64,000 nt of DNA, from positions 47,050 through 111,049 of the forward strand of contig DUCF01000036.1 in the NCBI GenBank assembly GCA_012959965.1, written 5' to 3'. This stretch comes from Candidatus Thioglobus sp. Its GTDB lineage: Bacteria > Pseudomonadota > Gammaproteobacteria > PS1 > Pseudothioglobaceae. Position numbers and translations under genes: made by a program. Within the stretch, counting starts at the first letter, position 1, and the number at the start of each line of letters is the position of its first letter. This document shows, piece after piece, positions 1 through 8,028 of this stretch. The notes below the pieces were generated by a model. It searched no databases and was not told the DNA's origin. It worked only from the letters and a program-made list of their open reading frames with translations.

Positions 1-254
1 GCCTCTTTTCTAAGCGGGATTAGGGCTCGGTATTCGGGCGAAGAGTGCCAGCCATTTACCGACTCTTTATCAGGAAATTTTATTACCACTGTGTCATTGT
101 GCTTGTGACTTCCTGAAAGCACTGAGATCATCCTCCCTCTAAACACCAACACGCCATTCCACGGCTCTATAGTTGCAGGAACACTCCGACGATATTCAGA
201 CCATTTTTCTGCATTTTTTACAGTTATGTGCCCAATTACGTATGCCTCTGCCAT
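1..254 (-). CDS. DUF1330 family protein (N-terminal part, truncated by window edge)
   Basis: Reverse strand translates from ATG at 254 as MAEAYVIGHITVKNAEKWSEYRRSVPATIEPWNGVLVFRGR...VVIKFPDKESVNGWHSSPEYRALIPLRKE, open to the window edge; resembles DUF1330. Confidence 0.75.
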   Translation of the reverse strand, partial: MAEAYVIGHITVKNAEKWSEYRRSVPATIEPWNGVLVFRGRMISVLSGSHKHNDTVVIKFPDKESVNGWHSSPEYRALIPLRKE

Positions 255-358
255 AAAATAAGTTTACCTAATTTATAATTGCTTTTGTATTTGTCATACC
301 AGCTTATTCTATGAATTGCTAAATATTTCACTCTAAGAGAAACACGCACAAATAAACG
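253..358 (+). repeat. Copy A of a dispersed ~100-bp repeat: decayed promoter plus first ~14 codons of a ygjP-like gene
   Basis: AGTTTACCTAATTTATAATTG...ATGAATTGCTAAATATTTCACTCTAAGAGAAACACG aligns without gaps to 7322 onward; TATAAT-to-ATG distance is 37 nt in all three copies. Reads MNC*IFHSKRNTHK*. Confidence 0.8.
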
Positions 359-392
359 AGTAACATCCATTTTTTTAGGGGGTACCGCAATT

Positions 393-1493
393 ATGGAAGA
401 GCATGGCACTGTTAAAGGGGGTATTTACGAAACTCTTCCCACTACACACTATTTCGACTCTGCCATTTTTGAACGTGAAAAAACGCGTATCTTTCACCGT
501 TGCTGGCAGCTCGCAGGCCACGTTAGTGATATACCAAATCAAGGTGATTTTTTTGTTGCCGACATTTCTGGCAAATCGATTGTAGTACTGCGTGGAAAGG
601 ATGACATTGTTCGCGGTTTTTATAATGTCTGTATTCACCGTGGCCATGAATTGCTTACGGGAAAAGGCTGTGTAAATCACATTATCTGCCCCTATCATGC
701 TTGGATGTATGACACCACCGGCCAGCTGCAAAATGTACCCAATGGCGATGCCTTCCCAGGGTTAGATGTTACAGGCCACAGCCTAAACCAAGTGAATCTG
801 AATACCTTCATGGGTCTGATTTTGATTAACCTCGATAAAAATACAATTCCTTTTGAAGAGTTTGCAGGTGATGCGGCTAATGAAATTCGGGAGCGCGTAC
901 CCAACCTAGAGTCCTATGTGCATGTGGAACGCACTGAGCGTAATTCGCCAGCGAACTGGAAAATCGAAGCGGAAAATTTCAACGATTGTTATCACTGCCC
1001 AGTGATACATAGAACACTCACCTCTGGCGTGGTTGATCCCACAAAATACCGCACACGCAAGCGTCCATATGGCATTCTCCATGAAAGTCCAGTGCGCCCT
1101 GACGAGCAGAAGTCATTTGACTATATGGCTGATGCTAACCGTAAAACCGATAAGTTTATTACTTGGTGGTTCTGGCCGTTCTTTGTTGTGCAAGTTTATC
1201 CGGGTGGTTATGTAAATACTTGCAGGTGGAAGCCCATTTCGCTGAACGAAACCAAGGTTGAAGTGGATTGGTGGATGCCATCCAAGACCCTTAGCCCGGT
1301 GGAGGCTGAACTTATCAAACAGCAACGCGAAACTACCTTTCATGAAGATGGGGAGGTGGTGAAATCTGTCCAAAGAGGGCTAGAATCTGGTGGACTCAAA
1401 AAAGGAATGGTGATGGTCGATGAAGCCTGCAGCTCCCTCTCAGAGCATCCTATAGTTGCCTTTCACGAGCATTACTTTGCAGCCATGGAGTAG
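393..1493 (+). CDS. Rieske-type aromatic ring-hydroxylating oxygenase alpha subunit
   Basis: Rieske C80-x-H82...C99-x2-H102 (CIHRGH/CPYH); mononuclear iron site NFNDCYHCPVIH; downstream ED...SVQRGL. Confidence 0.92.
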   Translation: MEEHGTVKGGIYETLPTTHYFDSAIFEREKTRIFHRCWQLAGHVSDIPNQGDFFVADISGKSIVVLRGKDDIVRGFYNVCIHRGHELLTGKGCVNHIICPYHAWMYDTTGQLQNVPNGDAFPGLDVTGHSLNQVNLNTFMGLILINLDKNTIPFEEFAGDAANEIRERVPNLESYVHVERTERNSPANWKIEAENFNDCYHCPVIHRTLTSGVVDPTKYRTRKRPYGILHESPVRPDEQKSFDYMADANRKTDKFITWWFWPFFVVQVYPGGYVNTCRWKPISLNETKVEVDWWMPSKTLSPVEAELIKQQRETTFHEDGEVVKSVQRGLESGGLKKGMVMVDEACSSLSEHPIVAFHEHYFAAME

Positions 1494-1540
1494 CACTAAT
1501 TGCGCGTAATCACAGTAGTTAGGGCTTGAAAAGCCGCCTT

Positions 1541-3073
1541 TTATTTTAAAGCTGCTAGTTTGCCTTTTTCTGGCTTTCCGCTAGATGTTCGTGGCATTTC
1601 CTCAAGAAAAACTATATGCTTAGGCACCATGAAGCGCGCCATACACCCTTTACAATGCTGAATTAAATCCTCTTCAGTGACTTCAGTGCCATGTTTTCTA
1701 ACCACGAATAACTTAATATCTTCTTCGCCCATTTCACCGGGAATCCCGATAGCGGCGCAATCTTGTATGTCGTGGTGTGTCAACGCGCCCTCTTCGACCT
1801 CAAAAGCTGAAACCATCTCTCCTTTCACTCGGATGCGCTCACTGATTCGATGCATGAAATAAAAGTAACCTTGTTCATCCATGCGCCCAATATCACCGGT
1901 GTGAAACCAAAGATTACGCCAACTTTCTAGAGTACGTTCTGGCATATCAAAATAACCACTGGACATAACACCGGGTTCCAAAGGACGCACAACCATTTCA
2001 CCCGCTTGTCCCGGGGGCAACGGGTCATCATTTTCATCATGGATTTCAACTTCAAAATGCGGCAATACAATCCCGCCAGGTTCATCCCACTGAGGGGTTA
2101 CAACCCAGCCAGCATCTGTCGATCCATATCCACCACCGGGAATCAAGTGTAGATTAAAACGAGCATCGAAGTCTTTTTTTGGAACGGGCGCAGGTGTGCC
2201 CCAACATCGAGTAACTTTGTGATCTTTTTCCTCCGGACAAGGTGGGTGCGCCCATAACAGTTGTTGTACCGACCCAAGCATCATAAACCAAGTAACGCCG
2301 TATTTTTTGACTTCAGGCCAAAAATTGGAAACACTAAAACGTTGTCGCATAACAACACGTCCGCCCGTCATCATAGTTGGCAACACATCATAATAAGCAG
2401 GGCCGATATGGGAGAGAGGATAAATACAATACACGCAATCCTCTGCAGTCACCCTATACGGTTCAATCATATTTTCGGCGGTTCTCACAGCGTAACGATG
2501 AGACAATAGGCAGCCTTTAGATACGCCGGTGGTGCCAGATGTAAATAGAATTGTTGCAATATCCGTATCTTTGGCGGGTGAGGCGATATGATCTTCACAG
2601 CTTGACAGAATCTCTTCAAAGCGAACAACCTCAAGCTCGGGGAACAGGCTACGCGCCTCATCCACCCCATCAAGCATAATCAATGTCTGTACGCTCGGAA
2701 TCAAATCACGAATCTGATCTAAGGCGCCAAGTTGTTGGCTAGACGTAAATAATAACTTCGTTCCTGTTTGGTCGATCATTCGCGCCAGTGGCATATCCCG
2801 CATGGCAGGATTGATGGAAACCTCTATCGCATTCACTTTTTTCAAAGCGTAAGAAATAGCAAGATACTCTGCACTGTTTTCCAGAAAAATATCAACGTAG
2901 GACAGCGCATCACTGTAATTTTCCAGCAACCCATGAGCCACACGATTCGTTAAGACCTCGAACTCACGATAAGTCAGTGTTTCGCCCGTCTCGGCGATAA
3001 TTAGGAAGGGTCGATCACCAAATTTTTCTGCACATTCGTGCAGGAGATCTCCCAATGTGATTCGCAACGCCAT
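1541..3073 (-). CDS. AMP-dependent acyl-CoA synthetase/ligase, CaiC (crotonobetaine/carnitine-CoA ligase)-like
   Basis: AMP-binding P-loop ILFTSGTTGVSKGC, GYGSTDAG, LWFHTGDIGRMDEQGYFYFMHR and C-terminal PRTSSGKPEKGK. Confidence 0.88.
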   Translation of the reverse strand: MALRITLGDLLHECAEKFGDRPFLIIAETGETLTYREFEVLTNRVAHGLLENYSDALSYVDIFLENSAEYLAISYALKKVNAIEVSINPAMRDMPLARMIDQTGTKLLFTSSQQLGALDQIRDLIPSVQTLIMLDGVDEARSLFPELEVVRFEEILSSCEDHIASPAKDTDIATILFTSGTTGVSKGCLLSHRYAVRTAENMIEPYRVTAEDCVYCIYPLSHIGPAYYDVLPTMMTGGRVVMRQRFSVSNFWPEVKKYGVTWFMMLGSVQQLLWAHPPCPEEKDHKVTRCWGTPAPVPKKDFDARFNLHLIPGGGYGSTDAGWVVTPQWDEPGGIVLPHFEVEIHDENDDPLPPGQAGEMVVRPLEPGVMSSGYFDMPERTLESWRNLWFHTGDIGRMDEQGYFYFMHRISERIRVKGEMVSAFEVEEGALTHHDIQDCAAIGIPGEMGEEDIKLFVVRKHGTEVTEEDLIQHCKGCMARFMVPKHIVFLEEMPRTSSGKPEKGKLAALK

Positions 3074-3240
3074 GATATCCCCCTTGATAATTCAGCTGCT
3101 ATGAATTTTTAGCCGAATTCTACAGAAGTTTTTCAGAATATTTTCACTTTTTTAAACGTAAGCTACAATAGCATTGCACTTAACTTTTGAATTCGAAGCG
3201 AACTCTCTATTCTTCTTATTAGATCTTATTACAACTCTCT

Positions 3241-3858
3241 TTACTCCAAGTCTAGCTCCGGATATAGACGGTAAGTATCGGGATCAGTATTGCCGGACCA
3301 TCGCCAAAGAGCCACCAGTGGGTGTTCGAGGGTTTTGAAAGCATGGAGCATTTCTGATGGATGGTGAATAACACCACCGACGCCATGACGGGTCGTCTTA
3401 TCCCCTTGGGTCCAGTAACCAACGCCTTCTATCATGACGTATGTCTCCACGGCTTCATGATTATGCAATGGGTAATAAGTATTTGGTCGCTGCACAAACA
3501 AACCTGCACGTAAGGTCGAATGCTCGACCAAGCAACCAGGCCCCATCAGAGAGTTTGAAGTAAATGCATCGGATACGTCGGTCGGCACTTGCTCATCCAA
3601 GAAGCCACCAGTAGCATCCCATTGTAGGAACTTCTGGCACCCTCTAGCCGCAGCTGCGCAAGGATGATTGGCATTTTTAAGCGCACTAACCACAAAATGA
3701 TCGTATTTATAAGGCGTTGCCGGAACGGCTATCACTTTACCAGCGGCACGGCGCAAAACATCCGCTGTTTCACCCCCTGCTTCGCAGCCGTCGCCCTCAA
3801 AAAGGCTAGCCATTTCTAACAGGAGTGCTTCAAAACATTTTTCAGGTGATGCTGTCAT
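3241..3858 (-). CDS. Cupin protein resembling dimethylsulfoniopropionate (DMSP) lyases of the DddL/DddQ/DddK type
   Basis: PLHNHEAVETYVMIEG gives H132-x-H134-x3-E138-x-Y140, with H172 in HHPSEMLHAF 34 residues after E138; YPLHNH...VALWRWSG context fits the family. Confidence 0.72.
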   Translation of the reverse strand: MTASPEKCFEALLLEMASLFEGDGCEAGGETADVLRRAAGKVIAVPATPYKYDHFVVSALKNANHPCAAAARGCQKFLQWDATGGFLDEQVPTDVSDAFTSNSLMGPGCLVEHSTLRAGLFVQRPNTYYPLHNHEAVETYVMIEGVGYWTQGDKTTRHGVGGVIHHPSEMLHAFKTLEHPLVALWRWSGNTDPDTYRLYPELDLE

Positions 3859-3986
3859 ACAATATACCTCGATACTTCCAGTGCAGCCAAGAAAAGCAAA
3901 TACCTCTCATCGTCAATATTTGCTTGTCAATGAAAGATTACACTGGGAATTAAAATAAATTACTCACTCTCTGACTCCATCATGTT

Positions 3987-5240
3987 TCATCTGGAGTACT
4001 TCATATACCAATTACAAAACTGAGTGCAATGGCGCTCATCATCAGAAAAAGGGCCGGGACGATAGTGTGCAGAATAAGCCCCTTGTGTCATGGATCGACA
4101 AAGCGCAACATCTTCAGAATTGGTCACTTTCCATACACTGGTTAAATGCTCTTTCTCATAATCCACCCCCTCCACAGCATCTTTATGCACTATCCAACTA
4201 GTATAGAGAATGCATTTATGCTCATCTATAGGGAGTACCCAGTTTGTTGCAATATGATCACTGGTGAAATGCACCCAAGCATTTGGATTAAGCCAAAATG
4301 AGAGCGTTCCTTCGTCATATTCTTTATGCGGACCAATCAGCATTGCACTGCAAGGCTTACCGTCAAAGCTGGTCGACTTAAAGCCTTCCTTCATCGGGTA
4401 TCTAGCTATGCGACAACAATCATGCTCGTCAAAAGCCTTCTCCTTCCACAACAGCCCTTTGTCATCCCATCTTTCACTTGCTTTGCTAAACGCTGCCATA
4501 TAGGAAGGCTCTCGGCCACCGTTAAAGCTGCTGTCGCTGAACAATTTAAGCAAGCCCTTGTGATTCATTTGACAATGGCAACACTCACGATTATTAATCA
4601 TAACCGTTAACCAGTTGGCATCCAAAACTTCGCGTTCGTGATACGCCAGTTTATAGCCCTCTTTATCTAGATGAAAAGGACCAACGTAAGGGTCTAGCAA
4701 CTCTCTCATGCCTTGAATATCTTCATCAGGCGCACCTTCTCCTAAAGACATAAACAACATGCCCGCAACTTCTTCAAGTTTAATATTATCAAGGCTGGAT
4801 GCTTTACCTGCATCGGAGCATACAAACTCATCGGACATTCTTGGTGCATGATAAAGACTGCCGTCGTCAAGGTTGTAAGTCCACTGGTGATTTGGACACA
4901 TTATTTTGGCGGGGCATTTGCCCACATTTTCAGTTACCAAATGTGCGCTTTGATGAGCGCAACGATTAACCATGCAACGGATTACGCCATCCGTCCCGTG
5001 TATCAAAAAATAAGAGTTTTCAAATAAACGGAAAGATAAATAACTTCCCGTATCTGGAACATCTCCTCGTGTGCCAACAAAACACCATTTATTGTGAAAT
5101 AAGCGCTTCATTCTGGCTTTATCAAACAACACCTCGCGCGGAAAGGAGTAACCCTCCTGATATGAATCTTGGTGCAAAGCCCCTTGTACACTGCAGTGCT
5201 CGCCTACAACTTGATCTGACATAATAACCTTTTTTGACAT
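3987..5240 (-). CDS. Rieske-type oxygenase alpha subunit (second paralogue)
   Basis: CAHQSAH...CPNHQW Rieske motif; NNRECCHCQMNH mononuclear iron motif; SEDVALCRSMTQG near the C-terminus. Confidence 0.88.
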   Translation of the reverse strand: MSKKVIMSDQVVGEHCSVQGALHQDSYQEGYSFPREVLFDKARMKRLFHNKWCFVGTRGDVPDTGSYLSFRLFENSYFLIHGTDGVIRCMVNRCAHQSAHLVTENVGKCPAKIMCPNHQWTYNLDDGSLYHAPRMSDEFVCSDAGKASSLDNIKLEEVAGMLFMSLGEGAPDEDIQGMRELLDPYVGPFHLDKEGYKLAYHEREVLDANWLTVMINNRECCHCQMNHKGLLKLFSDSSFNGGREPSYMAAFSKASERWDDKGLLWKEKAFDEHDCCRIARYPMKEGFKSTSFDGKPCSAMLIGPHKEYDEGTLSFWLNPNAWVHFTSDHIATNWVLPIDEHKCILYTSWIVHKDAVEGVDYEKEHLTSVWKVTNSEDVALCRSMTQGAYSAHYRPGPFSDDERHCTQFCNWYMKYSR

Positions 5241-5309
5241 TGTCTATCTATGAATGAATTCGCCGACATTGTAATTGAATATAAACCGTAGGTGTTATAT
5301 GATTAATAC

Positions 5310-5403
5310 CCCTAAATCTATAATTCACTTCGTAGTTGTTATATAGCCTTATTCTATGAACTATCCAATCATTCACTCTAAGATAATTACGCTTAAATAA
5401 ACG
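5310..5403 (+). repeat. Copy B of the dispersed repeat: decayed ygjP-like 5' segment
   Basis: CCTAAATCTATAATT...TTATTCTATGAACTATCCAATCATTCACTCTAAG...ACGCTTAAATAAACG; from ATG at 5356 reads MNYPIIHSKIITLK*; shares the AAATAAACG end with copy A. Confidence 0.78.
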
Positions 5404-5449
5404 GTTTGTGCCTCCTTTTGGCAAGAAAATCTTTAAATTATTGATTTAT

Positions 5450-6577
5450 TTAGATGTCTTTCAATGAGTCAATAATCAATGATTGAAAATGATGAACCCC
5501 GTGTTCGCTAAGATGTGTTCTGTCCTTGTCAACGACAAACCTTCCTTGATTATATGCCAAAGAATTAAGGCCTTTTTGCACACTTTCACATAGGCCAATA
5601 TCTTCCGGCTGTAGCACCTCATCTAAATACTTAATAGCCTCAGCAGAGGATTGATTTGGCTCTTCGCCCAAACCATGCCAATCTAATGTTTCTATGCAGT
5701 TATCAATACCGTCAGGATGCATTTGGAGCATACTAATATTGGACTCGCCTGGCATCACCCAAATTGTTAGATTAGGCCAAACAAACCATGCAGCATAGCC
5801 AAAAGTTTGCCCACCCTCAAAGTGATAAGCGGCACTGCTCTGATTGCTCGGTTTGTGTGAAATATGACTGGAGTAAAGCTTATAAGTTTTCGTTTCATAA
5901 CTTGGCATATCAACTAAATCAACAAAATCGTGGTGTGCTGGGTGACAATGATAGCACTCTAGAAAGTTATCTATTAACACCTTCCAATTGGCTTTGACAC
6001 TGTAATTGGTCTGGAACTGACATTGCACTTTATCCACATCGGGTGTGTACGATAGAATTTCCTCAGATAGGCCGTCATACAATTCTGTCATAGGCTTTGC
6101 GTCTAAATCAAGATTTACAAACAAAAAGCCTAAAAAGCTCTCCACCAAGACAGGTTTCAGATTGAAATAGGATGAATCAAAATCCTCCATGTCTTGAGTG
6201 TTTCTTGCACCTAAGAATTCTCCCTTATTACTATAACACCAAGCGTGGTACGGACAAACAATTGCTGGCGTATTGCCACTACCAGTCAACAACTGGTGTC
6301 CTCGATGAGCGCATACGTTATAAAAACCTCGAATCTCTGAATCGGATTCTTTAATAAGTACAATTTCTTGGCCATGAATAGAGCAGCAATAATAATCACC
6401 AGATTTGGATAAGTGTGATTGATGCGCAACATAAATCCAGTTACTCCAAAAAATATCCTTCTTTTCTTTGTCGGCAATTAGTGGGTCAATGTAGTATCGT
6501 GCAGCCATTGTGTAAGATTGAATCGGGTCGTTAGAAAATGGCATTTCCATAGGTTTTAACTCAATTGTGCTAGACAT
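5450..6577 (-). CDS. Rieske-type oxygenase alpha subunit (third paralogue; carnitine/betaine monooxygenase-like)
   Basis: CAHRGHQLLTGSGNTPAIVCPYHAW Rieske motif; DNFLECYHCHPAH iron site with Glu at the bridging position; PEDIGLCESVQKGL. Confidence 0.92.
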   Translation of the reverse strand: MSSTIELKPMEMPFSNDPIQSYTMAARYYIDPLIADKEKKDIFWSNWIYVAHQSHLSKSGDYYCCSIHGQEIVLIKESDSEIRGFYNVCAHRGHQLLTGSGNTPAIVCPYHAWCYSNKGEFLGARNTQDMEDFDSSYFNLKPVLVESFLGFLFVNLDLDAKPMTELYDGLSEEILSYTPDVDKVQCQFQTNYSVKANWKVLIDNFLECYHCHPAHHDFVDLVDMPSYETKTYKLYSSHISHKPSNQSSAAYHFEGGQTFGYAAWFVWPNLTIWVMPGESNISMLQMHPDGIDNCIETLDWHGLGEEPNQSSAEAIKYLDEVLQPEDIGLCESVQKGLNSLAYNQGRFVVDKDRTHLSEHGVHHFQSLIIDSLKDI

Positions 6578-6610
6578 ATTTACTCCTATTAGTTAATTTT
6601 CATAGTTGAA

Positions 6611-6639
6611 AGTTTACTGTTGAAGTATAATGTTGTCAA
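6611..6639 (-). promoter_or_regulatory. Sigma70-like promoter for the 5450..6577 Rieske gene
   Basis: On the minus strand TTGACA (6639-6634), 17-nt spacer, TAAACT (6616-6611); three TTCAAC repeats bracket it (6605-6610, 6619-6624, 6641-6646). Confidence 0.55.
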
Positions 6640-6662
6640 GGTTGAAAATCAATTATTAATTT

Positions 6663-7250
6663 ATGGCAAGACCATCAGTAAAAAAAGAGCGTCACAAAGT
6701 TATCATGCTTGCATTTGCACAATGCATCGCTGAAAAGGGTTTGGATGCTACAAGTTTGGACGATATAGCTCGAAAAGTTCAAATGCATAGAAGTCTTGTG
6801 CGTCACTTCTCTGGTAACCGTGCCGATCTAATATGCCAAGTTACTGACTTTATCTCTAGCGAATTCGAGAGCATGTGGGTGGCACAAAAAGACCAAAACA
6901 AAGACGATAAAAGCGATGAGTGGCTACTGAAAACTCTCTTCAAAAACACTCCGGATAAAGAATACCAAGAACTTCTACCTGCTTTCTACTCACTTCTAGC
7001 TGTCGCTCATCGATATCCAGTGGTTAGTGAAAGATTAAAGCAGTGTTTTAATTTTTACGTTGATGGAATAACCAATGAGCTTGTATTACGGCACCCACTT
7101 TCAACTGAAGAAGAGTGTAGAGAAATATCCACAGGTGTGGTCGGAATATATTTTAACTGGGACAGCTTAAGAGGCTTGAATCTGGGTCAAGGAGTATCAA
7201 GTATCAACAGGAGAATTGTCAGAAAATTAATATCGATTCTTGATACCTAG
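6663..7250 (+). CDS. TetR/AcrR family transcriptional regulator
   Basis: N-terminal HTH: AFAQCIAEKGLDATSLDDIARKVQMHRSLVRHFSGNRADL; divergent from the Rieske gene. Confidence 0.85.
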   Translation: MARPSVKKERHKVIMLAFAQCIAEKGLDATSLDDIARKVQMHRSLVRHFSGNRADLICQVTDFISSEFESMWVAQKDQNKDDKSDEWLLKTLFKNTPDKEYQELLPAFYSLLAVAHRYPVVSERLKQCFNFYVDGITNELVLRHPLSTEEECREISTGVVGIYFNWDSLRGLNLGQGVSSINRRIVRKLISILDT

Positions 7251-7314
7251 AGAACCCATGTGACACACATTTACTTATCTAACAAGATTACATTTTCACC
7301 TGCCTTTCTATTTA

Positions 7315-7410
7315 ATAAAATAGTTTACTTAATTTATAATTGATTGCGTCCCTGTCACACAATCCTGATTTATGAATTATCAAATCGTTCGCTCTAAACG
7401 CAAAACATTG
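7315..7410 (+). repeat. Copy C of the dispersed repeat: promoter and 5' end of the intact ygjP-like gene
   Basis: AGTTTACTTAATTTATAATTG at 7322 and ATGAATTATCAAATCGTTCGCTCTAAACGC at 7372; about 57/80 identical to copy A without gaps. Confidence 0.8.
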
Positions 7411-8028
7411 AGCTTACAAATCAATCAAGAGGCGAAACTGGTCATTCGTGCACCACAACGCCTCTCGGAAAAGGACATTCAAGAATTTGTTATTGAAAAA
7501 TCAAGCTGGATTGAGAGAAAACAACAGCAAGTCAAATCTCAACTTTGCGAAAAGTACCAGTTTGAAGAGGAGGAGATGTTTCTCTATTTAGGCAATAATT
7601 ACCCTTTAACCATTGCTAGAGATAAATACGCTCTTTCATTTAATGGTGAAGCCTTTGAATTAGGCACTGATCACGGCGAAGCGTCGGCTATTTTTAAGGG
7701 GTGGTACAAGCAAAAATTTAGAGAGATTGCACTACCTCGAATTGACTACTTTGCCAATCGACACAATCTTAAATTTAATGATGTTCGACTTAAGGCGCAA
7801 AAAACCCTATGGGGCTCTTGCTCAAACAATAACAATTTAAATTTTAATTACTTACTGATAATGGCACCAATGAACGTCATTGATTACGTCATTGTTCATG
7901 AGTTGTCACATACGATTCACAAGAATCATTCGAGTGATTTTTGGAGACTGGTTGAAGCCATTCTGCCAGAATATAAATCGGCAAAGAAGTGGCTAAAAGA
8001 TAATGGCCACAAACTGAAACGTCTGTAG
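7372..8028 (+). CDS. YgjP-like (DUF45) metallopeptidase domain protein
   Basis: HELSHTIHKNHSSDFW zinc motif; KTLWGSCSNNNNLNFNYLLIMAP typical of the family. Confidence 0.88.
   Translation: MNYQIVRSKRKTLSLQINQEAKLVIRAPQRLSEKDIQEFVIEKSSWIERKQQQVKSQLCEKYQFEEEEMFLYLGNNYPLTIARDKYALSFNGEAFELGTDHGEASAIFKGWYKQKFREIALPRIDYFANRHNLKFNDVRLKAQKTLWGSCSNNNNLNFNYLLIMAPMNVIDYVIVHELSHTIHKNHSSDFWRLVEAILPEYKSAKKWLKDNGHKLKRL

Follow-up and report, generated by a model that had tools for sequence, protein, structure and literature searches.

Decayed copies of the ygjP start within a purL-ygjP insertion hot spot in one clade of Candidatus Thioglobus

In the draft genome of Candidatus Thioglobus sp. (1.79 Mb in 95 contigs; hereafter G000), the gap between purL and ygjP holds eight accessory (cargo) genes and two decayed copies of the ygjP promoter and 5' end. 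The window, i.e. the whole stretch of DNA that was analysed, comprises 64 kb of contig DUCF01000036.1 (C36:47050-111049). Rightwards from purL, the order is HAD, DUF1330, A, Rieske1, ligase, a cupin resembling dimethylsulfoniopropionate (DMSP) lyase, GbcA-like Rieske2, B, Rieske3, TetR, ygjP, where A and B denote the decayed ygjP starts and C the intact ygjP. Remnant A (253..372, plus strand) consists of the decayed promoter (TATAAT at 274-279) and the first 13 codons of the gene, with the ATG at 311 and a stop at codon 4. Remnant B (5307..5405, plus strand; TATAAT at 5319-5324, ATG at 5356) is truncated at the same point and remains open for 14 codons before a stop. Copy C, the intact gene with its promoter (7315..8028, plus strand; coding sequence 7372-8028), forms the right border of the hot spot and encodes a YgjP-like metallopeptidase (PF01863, E 4.4e-58). 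The clade under study includes two further genomes, G019 and G043, all three assemblies being drafts; the G043 contig stops within the hot spot, so that the right side of that locus is unseen.

The similarity of A, B and C reflects a common origin, with A and B being decayed ygjP starts. A whole-genome search with A retrieved B at 74% identity (E 6e-10) and C at 75% (E 8e-9), the next match having an E of 0.6; pairwise identity among the three copies is 67-75%. The local alignment scores exceed the maximum of 1000 dinucleotide shuffles for every pair (63 vs 31 for A/B, 59 vs 32 for A/C and 39 vs 30 for B/C), which rules out a chance likeness of AT-rich sequence. In a self-comparison of the window with low complexity masked, A, B and C were the sole DNA repeats at E <= 1e-3. 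The first-pass annotation of this DNA had described the three copies accurately: they share one orientation (ATGs at 311, 5356 and 7372) and keep the ATG 37 nt from TATAAT when the count begins at its first T (31 nt when only the intervening bases are counted), A and C match at 57/80 ungapped positions over -50..+30, and the translations it gave, MNC*IFHSKRNTHK for A, MNYPIIHSKIITLK for B and MNYQIVRSKRKTLS for C, are correct; a likeness at the level of shuffled AT-rich sequence, which it had named as a refuting outcome, is excluded.

The two remnants also end at one point, as had been claimed: the homology to ygjP is lost after codon 13 in both, and AAATAAACG follows in each, A continuing to the right of the truncation as AAATAAACGAGTAACATCC. 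This right arm is missing from C. A truncated copy in G043, A', occupies the place of A, directly before the DUF1330 start, at 78% identity to A; its junction falls at the same codon and continues as AAATAAATG. The motif AAATAAAyG stands in register across A, B and A', and past ~10 nt the right arms are weakly alike. The proposal that the remnant would be found beside other accessory genes was thus borne out in G043 (HAD, DUF1330, EamA, SRPBCC) and in no further genome of the genus, where neither a pattern search with 3 mismatches nor a DNA search found an A-type junction besides A, B and the G043 copy. Derivation of the A/B right arm from an internal ygjP deletion was considered and rejected after a comparison of 24 loci, in which neither the C-terminus of ygjP nor its 3' flank resembles AAATAAACG. 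The simplest reading of the shared junction is that A, B and A' would go back to one ancestral truncation that was copied afterwards.

Two explanations of the remnants bear directly on this junction. The first is a plain tandem duplication of the purL-ygjP junction through unequal crossover, once or twice, in the manner of merodiploid formation, followed by decay of the extra ygjP and by a gain of spacer genes that was unrelated to the repeats. Such an origin would yield co-oriented copies, one intact and the others decayed, and is compatible with a sequence divergence among the copies that is about the same as that between species; it should also have left a second purL end or some ygjP sequence past codon 13, yet neither is present at A, at B or in G043, and the shared truncation demands one deletion that preceded the duplication, which together make this a rather unlikely account. 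The second is homology-facilitated illegitimate recombination, in which one end of the incoming DNA was anchored in ygjP and the other was joined without any homology, so that the old ygjP start stayed behind. This process, described (PMC3240628) as a known outcome of transformation and conjugation, would account for an intact new ygjP beside an old truncated start. Independent joins, however, should differ in their ends; with a single end common to A, B and the G043 copy, illegitimate recombination can explain the first event only, and as an explanation of the whole locus it is improbable.

The purL-ygjP site is empty in 22 congeners, in which only 24-62 nt separate the purL stop from the ygjP start (G018, G020, G021 and G042, which have no ygjP match, were left unscored). 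Cargo at this site is confined to the G000/G019/G043 clade, and its set differs in each genome: the order is purL, ligase, ygjP in G019, where neither A nor B nor a Rieske gene is present, and purL, HAD, DUF1330, A', EamA, SRPBCC and the contig end in G043. The purL-ygjP gap is therefore an insertion hot spot in this clade, as the first-pass annotation had supposed. A segment of ~110 nt that immediately precedes the ligase in G019 is found again, at 81% identity, past SRPBCC in G043, which implies that the locus is a mosaic with parts mixed between lineages; as a candidate for another A-type relic, the same segment was rejected, its score being not above those of shuffles. The last codons of purL encode ARAFVG in G000 (C36, ~46158, just left of the window) and ARVWMG in G043 (locus L044, 11040-11165), and the end is of the ARKWVD type in G019 and other congeners; given the deviating ends in G000 and G043, the inserted DNA seems to begin, on its left, within the purL 3' end. 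A scan of the contigs of GTDB r220 for close ygjP relatives yielded none beyond CAJVZH010000009.1, which agrees with the G019 contig in length and coordinates, and no tRNA genes were found in the window and no RNA families near the site. Misassembly is an unlikely source of the arrangement, since synteny is intact on both sides of the site and both the ligase and the HAD-DUF1330-A block were each found in a second assembly; the arrangement of the B-Rieske3-TetR-C stretch is borne out by no second assembly.

The ligase appears to be an old resident of the site. The G019 ligase between purL and ygjP has 93.7% amino acid identity to that of the window, and the divergence of the two at 4-fold sites, the measure used throughout, is 0.335, near the baseline of 0.36-0.46 for this genome pair; most likely, the ligase was already at purL-ygjP before the G000 and G019 lineages parted. 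An orthologue with 79% identity is present in four other congeners and lies in a different locus in 3/3 examined, beside methyltransferase-like (234 amino acids) and peroxiredoxin-like genes. In these three loci (L111 of G005, L112 of G003 and L113 of G010), the orthologue directly follows the same methyltransferase-like gene, and its far side varies by genome (GMC oxidoreductase, a sarcosine-oxidase-like cluster and others), so this locus is possibly a second insertion hot spot in the genus.

The distribution of the cargo bears on how it was assembled. The first-pass annotation envisaged two modules, A-B (Rieske1, ligase, cupin, Rieske2) and B-C (Rieske3, TetR), that entered successively at the 5' end of ygjP, each leaving a decayed flank. 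Of this proposal, the hot spot and the decayed ygjP starts stand, and entry of the A-B and B-C stretches as units that each left their own flank is not supported: with the ligase occurring alone in G019 and the remnant A preceding unrelated cargo in G043, the A-B block is a patchwork rather than one captured unit.

Recent exchange within the hot spot can be traced by divergence. Between G000 and G043, the divergence is 0.43 over six upstream core genes, which serve as the baseline, and 0.37 in purL; it drops to 0.21 in HAD (P 1e-5) and 0.10 in DUF1330 (P 5e-6), indicating that both genes were exchanged between the lineages later. The identity of the two genomes falls at window position ~268, inside A, from 98/100 to 77/104 (Fisher P 3e-7). 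Because the exchange tract ends inside A, both lineages most likely already carried this remnant when the exchange took place; the mapped breakpoint looks like homologous recombination that ended within the repeat.

Homologous recombination also fits the locus better than site-specific integration. Under the latter explanation, islands with a since-lost integrase would have inserted at ygjP codon 13 and supplied the gene each time with a new promoter and 5' end; A and B would then be scars of attL type in tandem, and C would be the attR, where the gene is restored. Departure of A, B and the G043 copy from ygjP at one codon, with the same motif in register, is what this explanation predicts, and it would also account for the intact ygjP and for the promoter and 5' codons kept in all copies. 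The enzymes that it calls for are harder to find: with profiles positive in 14/14 (PF00589, tyrosine recombinases) and 10/14 (PF00239, serine recombinases) control genomes, each of the three clade genomes gave two matches to the former, of 295 and 305-312 amino acids, the XerC/XerD pattern, and none to the latter. The two proteins of G000 are encoded on other contigs than the hot spot, and the hot-spot contigs contain no match to either profile. The absence of an integrase that had been reported for the window thus extends to the genome, apart from these two XerC/XerD-sized proteins; transposase families were not searched systematically or genome-wide. Furthermore, no mobility genes were detected by profile searches among the cargo (Rieske, AMP ligase, cupin, TetR, HAD, EamA, SRPBCC), G019 holds the ligase without an A-type scar, the A-B cargo is no single unit, inverted repeats around the junction are weak, different in each copy and never recurrent, and a search of viral contigs for the junction gave no match. 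Site-specific integration is, on balance, unlikely. The att-style history of two modules finds no support in the form initially proposed, and att-site duplication as such has against it that no dedicated integrase was found in the three clade genomes, that the sequence shared beyond ygjP is short and that the one mappable breakpoint looks homologous. Still more exotic, and very improbable, would be a new class of small integrative elements, or a trans-acting recombinase (XerCD among the candidates), for which ygjP codon 13 is the attachment site and which rebuilds the promoter and N-terminus upon each insertion, such that metabolic cassettes without an integrase of their own would stack in tandem.

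The explanation that we favour, with confidence somewhat above even for the whole of it, is that, within one clade of the genus, the purL-ygjP junction turned into an insertion hot spot that works without an integrase, its content changing through homologous recombination among related genomes, with a duplicated truncated ygjP start as crossover point. Accessory genes would be gained, lost and exchanged there, the incoming material probably being imported chromosomal DNA delivered by transformation or transduction. Early in the clade, one event would have left in the gap a truncated ygjP start, made up of the promoter and 13 codons and followed by unrelated sequence, a homology-facilitated illegitimate event being one option for the origin of this first truncation. 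Later, the relic would have become two, the A and B of the window genome, either by duplication or through one crossover at the relic itself, and it may have served as the short homology at which incoming cassettes recombine, presumably through RecA-type recombination at the repeats. Several observations weigh against this explanation or narrow its base. The evidence for the clade comes from three draft genomes, with the G043 locus incomplete on the right, and that for the breakpoint from the single genome pair G000/G043; purL, with a divergence at or slightly below baseline, shows no clear excess of recombination at the core flank in these three genomes; a tree of five 82-nt copies did not settle the order of duplication (support 44) and grouped only C with the G019 copy; and a common truncation point is also expected from site-specific recombination.

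The cargo itself suggests a metabolic theme. At the left edge of the window, the DUF1330-like gene (95 amino acids; 1..254, minus strand, reaching ~33 nt past the edge), so named by sequence resemblance rather than by a profile search, has its start codon abutting remnant A and, together with HAD further left, makes up the cargo between purL and A. Directly downstream of A lies Rieske1, a Rieske-type ring-hydroxylating oxygenase alpha subunit (393..1493, plus strand; PF00355, PF00848), followed on the minus strand by the AMP-dependent acyl-CoA ligase (1541..3073; PF00501), the DMSP-lyase family cupin (3241..3858; PF16867, E 2.9e-21; PDB 5cu1, a DMSP lyase, E 5.5e-12) and Rieske2, a glycine-betaine-monooxygenase-like oxygenase (3987..5240; NCBIfam GbcA, E 2.6e-83 and below the model cut-off; PDB 3n0q, 3vca, 4qup). 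Between B and C are Rieske3, another oxygenase alpha subunit (5450..6577, minus strand; PF00355, PF00848), and a TetR/BetI-like regulator (6663..7250, plus strand; PF00440, with weak matches to NCBIfam BetI models). The cupin, the GbcA-like Rieske protein and the BetI-like TetR suggest a candidate cluster for DMSP or betaine catabolism, the cargo pointing to use of methylated osmolytes or related compounds. The PF16867 cupin also matches DddQ structures, and its neighbours are the acyl-CoA ligase and the GbcA-like Rieske oxygenase.

The G+C content is 0.44-0.50 in the genes left of B and 0.40 to its right, a step that agrees with different sources for the two sides. Rieske3 has no close orthologue in the genus (best identity 46%), viral contigs contain no relatives of it or of the ligase, and its relatives on plasmids reach ~40% identity at best, which indicates no recent donor. 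The same genome has a Rieske3 paralogue (44-46%), apparently split or frameshifted, that adjoins two SDR genes where a short contig ends (locus L115, G000:C37:1-4175, positions 3195-4175). The ATG of Rieske1 is located ~113 nt past the end of the TATAAT of A, in the same direction, and the gene has a ribosome-binding-like site, AGGGGG, so that remnant A may serve as the promoter of Rieske1. For B, and for A' in G043, a promoter role is impossible, both facing convergent genes.

The locus shows where and how Rieske oxygenases, a DMSP-lyase-like cupin and an acyl-CoA ligase get swapped in a small-genome lineage and provides a concrete case of a broken border-gene copy marking a recombination breakpoint. 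If cargo borders in further genomes coincide with these repeats, a role of short core-gene relics as seeds of hot spots in streamlined bacteria would become testable.

Among the known systems, elements of the SXT/R391 type insert in the 5' end of prfC and restore the gene. The purL-ygjP locus resembles them in the duplicated promoter and N-terminal codons and in the intact gene on one side only; unlike in those elements, neither an integrase nor element genes nor a conserved attachment core turned up, and the cargo does not travel as one block. When islands accrete in tandem at one att site, the result is likewise co-oriented repeats between cargo blocks, whereas the A-B block, given the lone ligase of G019 and the other cargo next to the remnant in G043, is not one unit. 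Transformation can produce tandem duplications via short repeats (PMC3784515), and the locus is akin to such cases insofar as short repeats and imported DNA can yield direct duplications; the transformation-stimulated duplications of S. pneumoniae are, however, large (about 100-900 kb) and recent (PMC3784515), whereas here only ~100-nt relics are left. The closest match is with the integrase-free hot spots of horizontal gene transfer: about half of the bacterial hot spots are without mobile elements, 27% lack any integrase or transposase, and the core genes that flank hot spots show excess recombination (PMC5635113). The shared traits are a fixed core-gene gap that most relatives leave empty, accessory genes that differ per genome, the lack of mobility genes and signs of recombination; the differences are that excess recombination is not seen at purL and that decayed 5' duplicates of the border gene lie inside, one of them marking a breakpoint. 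In this comparison, the purL-ygjP locus adds one modest case to a familiar kind of hot spot, set apart by an unusual relic that marks a breakpoint.

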